64,000 bases of DNA from Thiohalobacter thiocyanaticus. GTDB taxonomy: Bacteria > Pseudomonadota > Gammaproteobacteria > Thiohalobacterales > Thiohalobacteraceae. The stretch is taken from positions 1 through 64,000 of the forward strand of contig NZ_QZMU01000002.1 of NCBI RefSeq assembly GCF_003932505.1. The letters run 5' to 3'. The notes below the pieces were generated by a model. That model ran no database searches. It was given only the letters and a program-made list of their open reading frames with translations, and was not told the origin of the DNA. A program made the position numbers and the translations under genes. Within the stretch, counting starts at the first letter, position 1. The number at the start of each line of letters is the position of its first letter. Below are positions 28,393 to 59,456 of the stretch, piece by piece.

Positions 28393-28737
28393 TCAGTACC
28401 CGCCCTTGCGGCGGCTCTCCGGCAGCCCGGCGACCTTGCCGCCCTGCTTGGAGGGCATTTTCGGGAACAGGGCGTACATGTCCTTGCTGGTGGGCTTGGT
28501 GCCCCACTTCTTGGCCATGTCCTTGAGAATGGTGCGGTCGTTGGGCTGGTTCTGGTTGTTGTTCAAGTACTCGTCGCGCAGATAGTTGATGATGTCCCAG
28601 TGCTGGTCGGTCAGCTGACCGATACCGCCCTCGGCGTCGGCGATCACCTGCGCCAGCTCCTCGCTCCAGTCGTGGGGATCGTTGAGATAGCCGTTTTCGT
28701 TGGTTTCGATGGTCTTGCCGTTGAGTTCGTAAGCCAT
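28393..28737 (-). CDS. DsrC/TusE-family protein without cysteines (RspA type)
   Basis: 114 residues aligned end to end with DsrC: MAYELNGKTIETNENGYL, DWSEELAQVIADAEGG, LTDQHWDIINYLRDEY, ALFPKMPSKQGGKVAGLPE. At the two redox positions of DsrC the residues are Gly100 (for CysB) and Lys111 (for CysA), and the whole protein has no cysteine. It cannot carry persulfide or trisulfide chemistry. The literature class RspA (regulatory sulfur-related protein) has this feature. The ATG has AGAGGAAG upstream. A palindromic element begins 26 bp upstream of the start. Confidence 0.9.
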   Translation of the reverse strand: MAYELNGKTIETNENGYLNDPHDWSEELAQVIADAEGGIGQLTDQHWDIINYLRDEYLNNNQNQPNDRTILKDMAKKWGTKPTSKDMYALFPKMPSKQGGKVAGLPESRRKGGY

Positions 28738-34142: not shown

Positions 34143-34535
34143 ATGAAACTTGCGGTAATGGTAAACGAAGGCCCCTATCAACATCAGAGCGCGGACAGCG
34201 CGCTGCAGTTCACCAAGGCGGCGCTGGAGAAGGGGCATGAGGTGTTTCGTGTGTTCTTCTACCACGACGGTGTGAACAACGGCACGCGGTTCGGTGTACC
34301 GCCCCAGGACGATCGCAACATCACCGTTCAGTGGTCCGAACTGGCCGAGCAACACAACATCGATCTGGTCGTATGTGTGGCAGCAGCCCAGCGCCGCGGC
34401 CTGCTTGACGAGAACGAAGCCAAGCGCCACGGCAAGGACGGCAATAATATCGCCAACGGCTTCCGGATTTCGGGCCTGGGTCAGTTGATCGAAGCTGGCA
34501 TCCAGAGCGACCGGCTCGTCGTATTCGGCGATTGA
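34143..34535 (+). CDS. dsrE: sulfur relay protein DsrE
   Basis: 130 residues. Cys78 in DLVVCVAAAQRRG is at the position of the active cysteine of Allochromatium DsrE. The DsrE/F fold begins MKLAVMVNEGPY. DsrEFH forms an alpha2beta2gamma2 heterohexamer related to TusBCD that passes persulfide sulfur to DsrC. Found with dsrL, it marks the oxidative pathway. Confidence 0.97.
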   Translation: MKLAVMVNEGPYQHQSADSALQFTKAALEKGHEVFRVFFYHDGVNNGTRFGVPPQDDRNITVQWSELAEQHNIDLVVCVAAAQRRGLLDENEAKRHGKDGNNIANGFRISGLGQLIEAGIQSDRLVVFGD

Positions 34536-34563
34536 GAGTTACTGACTAGAAGGTTTCAGAAAT

Positions 34564-34980
34564 ATGGAAAACGAGGGCGGTATCAAGAAGTTCATGTATG
34601 TGAACCGTAAGGCACCTTACGGGACCATTTACGCACTCGAATCCCTGGAGGTGGTCCTGATCGGCGCAGCCTTCGATCAGGATGTCAGCCTGGCATTCCT
34701 GGACGACGGCGTCTACCAGCTGGCAAAGGGCCAGGACACCAAGGGCATCGGCATGAAGAATTTCTCGCCGATCTACAAGGTCCTCGGGGATTACGACATC
34801 AACAAGCTGTATGTCGAAAAGGAATCACTCGAAGCCCGCGGTCTCACCCTCGATGACCTGCAGGAAATCATGTACGAGGACGAGGATGACGACTGGGAGG
34901 AAAAGCCCTCCATCCGTGTGGTCAGCGCCGCCGAGCTGCGCGACCTGATGGATGAACAGGACATCGTTCTCAGCTTCTAG
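34564..34980 (+). CDS. dsrF: sulfur relay protein DsrF
   Basis: 138 residues, DsrE/F-like fold (FMYVNRKAPYGTIYALESLE, LIGAAFDQDVSLAFLDDGVY). No cysteine is seen at the DsrE active position, as usual for the TusC/DsrF subunit. It lies 28 bp after dsrE and 20 bp before dsrH, as part of the EFH block. Confidence 0.96.
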   Translation: MENEGGIKKFMYVNRKAPYGTIYALESLEVVLIGAAFDQDVSLAFLDDGVYQLAKGQDTKGIGMKNFSPIYKVLGDYDINKLYVEKESLEARGLTLDDLQEIMYEDEDDDWEEKPSIRVVSAAELRDLMDEQDIVLSF

Positions 34981-35000
34981 GAACCAAGGGAGATTCAGTG

Positions 35001-35309
35001 ATGGCAATGCTGCATACAGTCAACAAATCACCTTTCGAGAATCGCTCCCTGGATTCATGCCTCGGACGCATCAAGGACGGCGCTGCCGTGCTGCTGTTCG
35101 AGGACGCGGTCTACGGCGCGATGAAAGGTACCGCCGTTGCAGGCAAGGTCCAGTCCGCGATGGAGAAGAGCAAAGTCTACGTGTTAGGCCCTGACCTCAG
35201 GGCACGTGGTATGAGCGAGGATCAGGTCCTGGACGGTATCAATGTCGTCGACTACGGCGGATTCGTCGACCTGGTCACTGAGCACGACAGTGTTCAGGCC
35301 TGGCTCTGA
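35001..35309 (+). CDS. dsrH: sulfur relay protein DsrH
   Basis: 102 residues from the ATG at 35001. A GTG one codon earlier is possible, but the ATG puts the conserved cysteine at position 20 (LDSCLGRIKDG), as in Allochromatium DsrH. TusB/DsrH fold. Third subunit of the DsrEFH sulfurtransferase. Confidence 0.96.
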   Translation: MAMLHTVNKSPFENRSLDSCLGRIKDGAAVLLFEDAVYGAMKGTAVAGKVQSAMEKSKVYVLGPDLRARGMSEDQVLDGINVVDYGGFVDLVTEHDSVQAWL

Positions 35310-35357: not shown

Positions 35358-35690
35358 ATGGCAATCGAAGTAAACGGCAAGACCTACGAGACTGACGAAG
35401 AGGGTTACCTGGCCAACCTGAACGACTGGGAGCCCGAAGTGGCAACCGCCATGGCCAAGGAAGACGGCACCGAGCTGAGCGAGAGCCACTGGGAAGTAAT
35501 CAACTTCCTGCGCGAGTACTACGAAGAGTATCAGATCGCTCCTGCCGTGCGCGTCCTGACCAAGGCCATCGGCAAGAAGCTGGGCAAGGACAAGGGCAAC
35601 AGCAAGTACCTGTACGAGCTGTTCCCCTACGGTCCGGCCAAGCAGGCGTGCAAGTACGCCGGCCTGCCCAAGCCGACCGGCTGCGTCTGA
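35358..35690 (+). CDS. dsrC: sulfur carrier protein DsrC
   Basis: 110 residues. The flexible C-terminal arm ends QACKYAGLPKPTGCV, with CysB = Cys98 and CysA = Cys109, both needed to carry sulfur to DsrAB and form the trisulfide processed by DsrMKJOP. The ATG has GAGGAGA upstream. It is the only member of three DsrC-family genes here with both cysteines. In Allochromatium dsrC has an extra promoter of its own; the 48-bp gap here is too short to judge. Confidence 0.98.
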   Translation: MAIEVNGKTYETDEEGYLANLNDWEPEVATAMAKEDGTELSESHWEVINFLREYYEEYQIAPAVRVLTKAIGKKLGKDKGNSKYLYELFPYGPAKQACKYAGLPKPTGCV

Positions 35691-57908: not shown

Positions 57909-57936
57909 AAAAAAACCCTCCCTTGACAGGGAGGGT
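57909..57936 (-). terminator. terminator of the tandem DsrC gene
   Basis: Read on the minus strand ACCCTCCCT-GTCA-AGGGAGGGT is followed by a T-run (A-run 57909-57915 on the plus strand). It lies 88 bp past the stop at 58024. Confidence 0.8.
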
Positions 57937-58023: not shown

Positions 58024-58815
58024 TCAGCCGTCGATGCAGCCCTGCGGCTCGGGCAGACCGGCGATGCGCGAGCCCTGCCGCGAGGGACCTTTGGGAAACA
58101 GCTTGTAGAGATAATCGGCGCTGGCCTTCTCCGGGCCGATCTCCTCACGCATGTGACGCATCAGGATCTTCACCATCGGGCTGATTCCGTATTCGAAATA
58201 GAAACCGCGCAGGAAGTTGAGAATCTCCCAGTGCTCGGCGGTCAGCTCGATGCCCTCCTTCTGGGCCATGTGCATGGCGACCCGTTCATTCCAGCGGTGC
58301 AGGTCGATCAGGTTGCCGGTAGGGGTGACTTCGTAACGTTCGCCGTCGAACTCGAAGCTGCCGACGAAATGCCCGGCCGCCCTGGACTGCTTGACCTGCG
58401 GGTTGTCGGCAGCGCGGTTGTCGGCATAGGTGCGGCGTTCCAGTTCTGCATCCAGATGCGGCACGGGCACGCCGGCCAGCTTGGAGCCCTGCACCAGCAC
58501 ATCGCCTGGAAACAGCGAATCCAGACGTTCATCACGGGCCAGTTCCTCATAGCCCTCGCGCAACAGGGCGCGCTTGAGCAGCTTGCGCACCGGCGAGACG
58601 TTGTATTCACCGTAGTAGCTGCGCATCAGGTTGATCACGTCCCAGTGATCCCGGGTCAGGTTCACGCCCATGGACTCAGCCATGGCAGCGGCGACATCCG
58701 GACTCCAGTCGTCGAGGTTGTGCAACCGCCCGTCGGGCATCAGCGGGATGGTCTTGCCGCCGACATCCATGACGGCGCCGGTGGGAAATTCCACGACATT
58801 CGAGGTGTGTGGCAT
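58024..58815 (-). CDS. tandem DsrC/TusE fusion protein
   Basis: 263 residues containing two complete DsrC-family domains. Domain 1 (about 15-120: GGKTIPLMPDGRLHNLDDW, LTRDHWDVINLMRSYYGEYN, GSKLAGVPVPHLD) has no cysteine. Its CysB/CysA positions are Ser111 and Asp122. A ~30-residue charged linker follows. Domain 2 (about 150-263: LTAEHWEILNFLRGFYFEYG, RQGSRIAGLPEPQGCIDG) keeps only CysA = Cys260, with Ser249 at CysB, as in TusE. The single-cysteine second domain could carry a persulfide. Monocistronic, with its own terminator. Confidence 0.9.
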   Translation of the reverse strand: MPHTSNVVEFPTGAVMDVGGKTIPLMPDGRLHNLDDWSPDVAAAMAESMGVNLTRDHWDVINLMRSYYGEYNVSPVRKLLKRALLREGYEELARDERLDSLFPGDVLVQGSKLAGVPVPHLDAELERRTYADNRAADNPQVKQSRAAGHFVGSFEFDGERYEVTPTGNLIDLHRWNERVAMHMAQKEGIELTAEHWEILNFLRGFYFEYGISPMVKILMRHMREEIGPEKASADYLYKLFPKGPSRQGSRIAGLPEPQGCIDG

Positions 58816-59084: not shown

Positions 59085-59456
59085 ATGAGAAAAGAGATTG
59101 CAATACAATGTGATAAAGCGATCCAGGATATTCTTCTGACAGCCCTGGAAAACTATATCGATGTCGCCTTCCCGCCCCACAGTTCGGATTGCGCCCAGGT
59201 CGCGCGCAGCGCCCTGCAGGATGCGGTCACGGCCCTGAAGTCGGAGTTCTCCGTACAGGACCAGGCCGTTTACAACAAGCGTCTGCGCGCCATGTTCCGG
59301 GAAGGCATCAAGCTGCATTACCAGCTGCAGGAGGCCGATACCGGCCGCCGCCACGCGGCCGAACGGGAGCTGCTGCTGGCGGTGGTCGGCGGTGAACCCG
59401 CCGACCGCGAGGCGCTGGAGCAGGCACGCGCCCGGGATACCGGGACCGCGGCTTGA
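59085..59456 (+). CDS. hypothetical protein, 123 aa
   Basis: Helical soluble protein (MRKEIAIQCDKAIQDILL, SALQDAVTALKSEFSVQDQ, NKRLRAMFREGIKLHYQLQE). No recognised domain. First in a plus-strand run with 59532, the diguanylate cyclase and sixA. The upstream 58816-59084 gap holds no supported gene. Confidence 0.65.
   Translation: MRKEIAIQCDKAIQDILLTALENYIDVAFPPHSSDCAQVARSALQDAVTALKSEFSVQDQAVYNKRLRAMFREGIKLHYQLQEADTGRRHAAERELLLAVVGGEPADREALEQARARDTGTAA

Follow-up and report, generated by a model that had tools for sequence, protein, structure and literature searches.

A conserved tandem DsrC fusion with a single invariant cysteine in sulfur-oxidizing bacteria

Thiohalobacter thiocyanaticus encodes a protein in which two DsrC domains are fused in tandem, and in which exactly one of the 263 residues, Cys260, is a cysteine. 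Relatives and a 369-genome sample of the class were searched, and 20 genomes of 11 families proved to carry the same fusion, as 21 genes in all. Because it is conserved in sulfur-oxidizing bacteria of eleven families, we conclude that the protein is genuine and under selection. Dissimilatory sulfur metabolism relies on DsrC as its central sulfur carrier, and sulfur-oxidizing genomes often encode many uncharacterized DsrC-like proteins. As far as the literature searched shows, this architecture, built from a known domain, is real, conserved and undescribed: a search of open-access papers, with few subscription journals among its sources, found nothing relevant on a tandem or fused DsrC. We tentatively propose that the fusion is an accessory persulfide carrier associated with the Dsr pathway, with one live and one dead DsrC domain, a reading that we hold to be quite possible, if somewhat short of probable. 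A conserved live/dead tandem provides a defined handle on the role of extra DsrC copies, with Cys260, Asp122 and the linker as separate targets for mutation and assay.

The gene lies in the window, the 64,000-nucleotide stretch of DNA that was analyzed. In the layout below, CysA denotes the penultimate cysteine of DsrC and CysB the cysteine 11 residues before it.

58024..58815, minus strand: tandem DsrC-DsrC fusion gene, 263 amino acids with a single cysteine (open reading frame and translation; two PF04358 matches)
58435..58776, minus strand: domain 1, about residues 14-127, predicted DsrC fold without redox cysteines, arm end ...AGVPVPHLDAELE (Pfam E=1.2e-23; DsrC fold match; one clade across 21 genes)
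58483..58485, minus strand: Ser111, at the CysB position of domain 1 (alignment)
58450..58452, minus strand: Asp122, at the CysA position of domain 1, invariant together with Glu124 in 21 of 21 fusion genes
58366..58434, minus strand: flexible linker, about residues 128-150, varying in length and sequence (pLDDT, alignment, charge)
58027..58365, minus strand: domain 2, residues 151-263, a single-cysteine DsrC domain with the arm RQGSRIAGLPEPQGCIDG (Pfam E=5e-38; fold match)
58036..58038, minus strand: Cys260, at the CysA position of domain 2, the sole family-wide invariant cysteine (alignment)
57915..57936, minus strand: intrinsic-terminator-like hairpin downstream of the fusion gene, nine pairs followed by TTTTTT

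Each half, taken alone, passes the curated cut-offs for the DsrC/TusE/DsvC superfamily. PF04358 (DsrC) matches residues 18-120 and residues 156-261, with the E values given above and with 84 bits for domain 1 and 130 bits for domain 2 against a cut-off of 24.9; the corresponding scores for TIGR03342 are 81 and 131 bits against a cut-off of 53.5. AlphaFold models, made from shallow input alignments (12 rows, with domain 1 covered by two rows in the full-length job), gave a mean pLDDT of 78 for the full-length protein and 83 for domain 1 alone. In the full-length model both domains were well predicted, and residues 121-150 were predicted to be disordered (pLDDT <50). All significant Foldseek matches of these two models in the PDB were DsrC structures; against 1yx3 the TM score by target length was 0.84 for domain 1 (E=3.4e-9) and 0.91 for the full-length model. 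Domains 1 and 2 are thus both predicted to share the DsrC fold. The initial annotation of this DNA had described two full DsrC-like domains, a view that a first domain without the DsrC fold would have overturned, and both the profile matches and the predicted structures bear its description out. It had also described a charged linker: the linker is there, short and flexible, with an unconserved sequence, and its charge was overstated (net charge about +1). That the join is an assembly artefact is ruled out by the presence of the same fusion in 20 genomes.

The arms of the two domains set the fusion apart from known DsrC-type proteins. As first noted from the translation, there is one cysteine in 263 residues, and Ser111 and Asp122 occupy the redox-cysteine positions of domain 1. 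Domain 2 has Ser249 at the CysB position and Cys260 at the CysA position, and their 11-residue spacing equals that of Cys100 and Cys111 in A. vinosum DsrC. The single CysA of domain 2 therefore stands as described, but its description as penultimate does not, since I-D-G follows and places Cys260 fourth from the C-terminus. The fusion resembles DsrC (TIGR03342/PF04358; A. vinosum DsrC, PDB 1yx3) in its fold, in the core residues GxL...W...HW...LFP...AGxP and in the CysA of domain 2, and differs in having two domains per chain, CysB in neither, no CysA in domain 1 and residues after CysA. Neither half has the penultimate CysA with CysB 11 residues before it that marks DsrC proper: domain 1 has Ser/Asp, and domain 2 has Ser/Cys and then IDG. 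RspA-type proteins, such as the cysteine-free paralogue at 28393-28737 of the window (end ...SRRKGGY), share with domain 1 the loss of redox cysteines, but domain 1 has the arm LDAELE and forms a separate clade, and the protein as a whole keeps CysA in domain 2. A cysteine-free domain beside a single-cysteine domain is thus unlike single-domain DsrC, TusE and RspA, as had been proposed. Among the proteins compared, those of highest identity (49% with domain 2, 42% with domain 1) were single-domain, two-cysteine DsrC proteins with a CID tail (e.g., L032 and L077; ...RQGCRIAGLPRPNDCIDLS), which have the same CID extension after CysA but keep CysB.

Domain 2 had been likened to TusE, and it does have CysA with Ser in place of CysB, a combination common in TusE-type proteins (PMC3397948). 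Furthermore, no other CysA-only protein is found among the ten DsrC-family genes of the genome. On these grounds the fusion could be equivalent to TusE and relay sulfur between a TusBCD-like complex and MnmA, toward 2-thiouridine formation in tRNA. We give this reading very little chance. The TusE profile NF008562 scores 167 bits on the whole protein and 111 on domain 2 against an equivalog cut-off of 191, the sole cysteine is fourth from the end where TusE has a penultimate one, and domain 2 groups apart from E. coli TusE in the tree; on score, C-terminal tail and tree we reject a TusE equivalog, and the data do not support the TusE-like identity of domain 2. The fusion also differs from TusE by an arm Glu that replaces Lys (GLPEP) and by the extra N-terminal DsrC domain. 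In addition, a relative whose genome is 100% complete (G004) lacks the fusion, none of its eight DsrC-family matches is CysA-only, and tRNA thiolation would not predict the association with dsrA described below.

Across the 21 fusion genes, no cysteine is invariant except the CysA of domain 2 (others are sporadic and occur in few members), and the domain 2 arm RQGS.I.GLP.PQGC is nearly invariant. The CysA position of domain 1 is Asp in every member, with an invariant Glu two residues later, and a basic helix, RKLLKR, is conserved in the same domain. Purifying selection acts on both domains, with dN/dS (NG86) of 0.02-0.07 for domain 2 and 0.05-0.17 for domain 1; the latter value indicates that the dead domain is maintained. 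The fusion might be an ordinary duplication relic, redundant or without function, given that it is a standalone gene with a patchy distribution within the host's family (the complete member G004 lacks it). However, selection on both domains and arm residues that are invariant across 11 families make this extremely improbable.

In a maximum-likelihood tree each domain forms one strongly supported group, domain 1 being a clade of its own (support 100/99), a pattern consistent with one fusion event and subsequent spread, vertical or horizontal. The two domains may be sisters, as an internal duplication would make them, a grouping seen in 62% of bootstrap trees (AU p=0.53). The tree does not support a derivation of domain 1 from RspA, since it places this domain apart from the RspA-type cysteine-free paralogues next to dsr. 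One genome (G109) has two adjacent fusion copies, and in a sample of 398 genomes of the phylum the fusion was found only in the T. thiocyanaticus genome studied here. Viral copies of the fusion were searched for and none were found; single-domain DsrC is present on viral contigs.

The fusion is associated with Dsr sulfur oxidation, in line with the co-occurrence with dsr genes for which a check had been suggested at the outset. dsrA is present above cut-off in 18 of the 20 fusion genomes. In the class sample of 369 genomes, dsrA is present in 14 of the 16 with the fusion, compared to 101 of 353 others (Fisher p=3e-6, an optimistic value because the sampled genomes are related and not independent). 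Two fusion genomes, G188 and G195, are missing both dsrA and DsrH; G188 carries the fusion on a contig of 3.9 kb, G195 is 81% complete, and the lack of dsrA is likely due to incompleteness or contamination. Just 14 of the 115 dsrA genomes in the class sample carry the fusion, and thus Dsr oxidation does not need it; the complete family member G004 likewise has dsrA and no fusion. The window itself contains a dsr operon with dsrA, dsrB, dsrEFH, dsrC, dsrM, dsrK, and DsrL-like and CobB/DsrN-like genes, including the following.

34143..35309, plus strand: dsrEFH, candidate sulfur donor (NCBIfam TusD/TusC/TusB equivalogs)
35358..35690, plus strand: canonical two-cysteine dsrC of the dsr operon (TIGR03342 E=1.1e-50)

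DsrH/TusB is encoded by a single gene in the genome, that within dsrEFH, making this the only DsrH/TusB-containing complex found. The fusion gene is outside the operon, about 22 kb from dsrC. It stands alone, with neighbors that differ between families, and no operon partner was found among those neighbors, which include an M1 aminopeptidase and a GGDEF protein; the hairpin downstream of it is consistent with a one-gene transcript. Divergent from the fusion gene is a gene for a conserved 123-amino-acid protein with no Pfam match (59085-59456, plus strand), homologues of which are beside the fusion in G001, G002 and G003 and, as judged by eye, in G317.

We postulate that domain 2 is the live carrier. 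In A. vinosum, DsrEFH passes sulfur to DsrC on the penultimate cysteine (CysA, Cys111) only, and CysB is irrelevant to this binding (PMC3397948). Because Cys260 is invariant, and by analogy with that protein (PMC3397948), domain 2 would receive sulfane sulfur as a persulfide on Cys260, most likely from DsrEFH. The longer C-terminus after Cys260 and the presence of Glu256 for the usual Lys could point to a different partner. An internal disulfide that involves CysB has been proposed for DsrC. Since domain 2 has no CysB, it would form no such disulfide for product release, and would instead hand its persulfide sulfur on or hold it.

We infer that domain 1, conserved yet free of cysteine, most plausibly serves to dock on a DsrC-binding surface. 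It would dock on this site without chemistry, through an acidic arm that has replaced the one with cysteines. Both DsrEFH (alpha2beta2gamma2) and DsrAB (alpha2beta2) have two-fold symmetry and a pair of DsrC sites per complex, which makes bivalent binding by the tandem plausible; in this way the fusion might gate or buffer the passage of sulfur to canonical DsrC. In a more specific form of this proposal, which we consider quite unlikely, the live/dead tandem would occupy both DsrC sites of DsrEFH (or DsrAB), and its LDxELE arm would mimic the charged, oxidized CysA arm to gate or buffer Dsr sulfur flow. If true, the tandem would be a pseudo-carrier regulator, analogous to pseudoenzymes.

The fusion might also bring substrate to DsrAB as an alternative carrier, perhaps to one of the two enzymes encoded by the two dsrAB loci of the genome, on the view that DsrC presents its CysA-bound sulfur to DsrAB (PMC3397948). 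However, it has no CysB for product release, it has extra residues after CysA whereas DsrC stops at Cys-Val/Ile, and most fusion genomes have a single dsrA above cut-off. We regard such a role as highly improbable.

The main rival to a carrier with a docking domain is a sulfur-sensing regulator. Here domain 1 would bind DNA through the helix-turn-helix-like core of DsrC, and persulfidation of Cys260 would alter binding at dsr or other promoters, making the fusion a one-component sulfur-responsive regulator. A putative part in regulating transcription has been ascribed to DsrC (Venceslau et al. 2014, as cited in PMC7787665), a single cysteine would suit a sensor, and the RKLLKR helix of domain 1 is basic and conserved. 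Both models also had weak matches to the LexA winged helix, which were below significance (Foldseek E of about 0.6-1.7, probability up to 0.63). However, domain 1 is acidic in most members (pI about 4.6-5.6, and 6.1-6.8 in three), a net charge that does not support DNA binding. Moreover, it groups apart from RspA-type paralogues, and the upstream sequence, read by eye, shows only a partial palindrome, in three congeners. We therefore think a regulator unlikely, and the data slightly favor a carrier with a docking domain. Of the roles first suggested, a self-contained regulator plus carrier and a scaffold for DsrC-binding partners, either may yet apply.

Several further DsrC-family genes were noted. 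The RspA-type paralogue at 28393-28737 (minus strand) is upstream of and divergent from dsrA, and its C-terminus, RKGGY, is conserved in relatives. The second dsrAB pair is outside the window (G000 contig C1:649920-652211; L154:13885-16371), and a DsrC homologue near it (L154:18563-18907) has kept CysB and has Trp at the CysA position (KQACRLAGMKRPRAWSTG); this type is also found beside the second dsrA of G004 (L164). Another gene on C1 of G000 (L010:2378-3022) encodes a DsrC domain that has no cysteine and is preceded by an additional N-terminal region, about 100 amino acids long and with no Pfam match. A long version of this protein is also present in G317 (L125) and, judging from open-frame length, is likely in G002, G004 and G090. 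In G224 and G104, two adjacent single-domain, two-cysteine DsrC genes with CVDWP tails (L074, L075) form an unfused tandem. Lastly, a short contig of G188 (C211) has at its edge a DsrC-family fragment (L123), which is accompanied by an exonuclease-like gene and other phage-like genes and is perhaps a viral copy.
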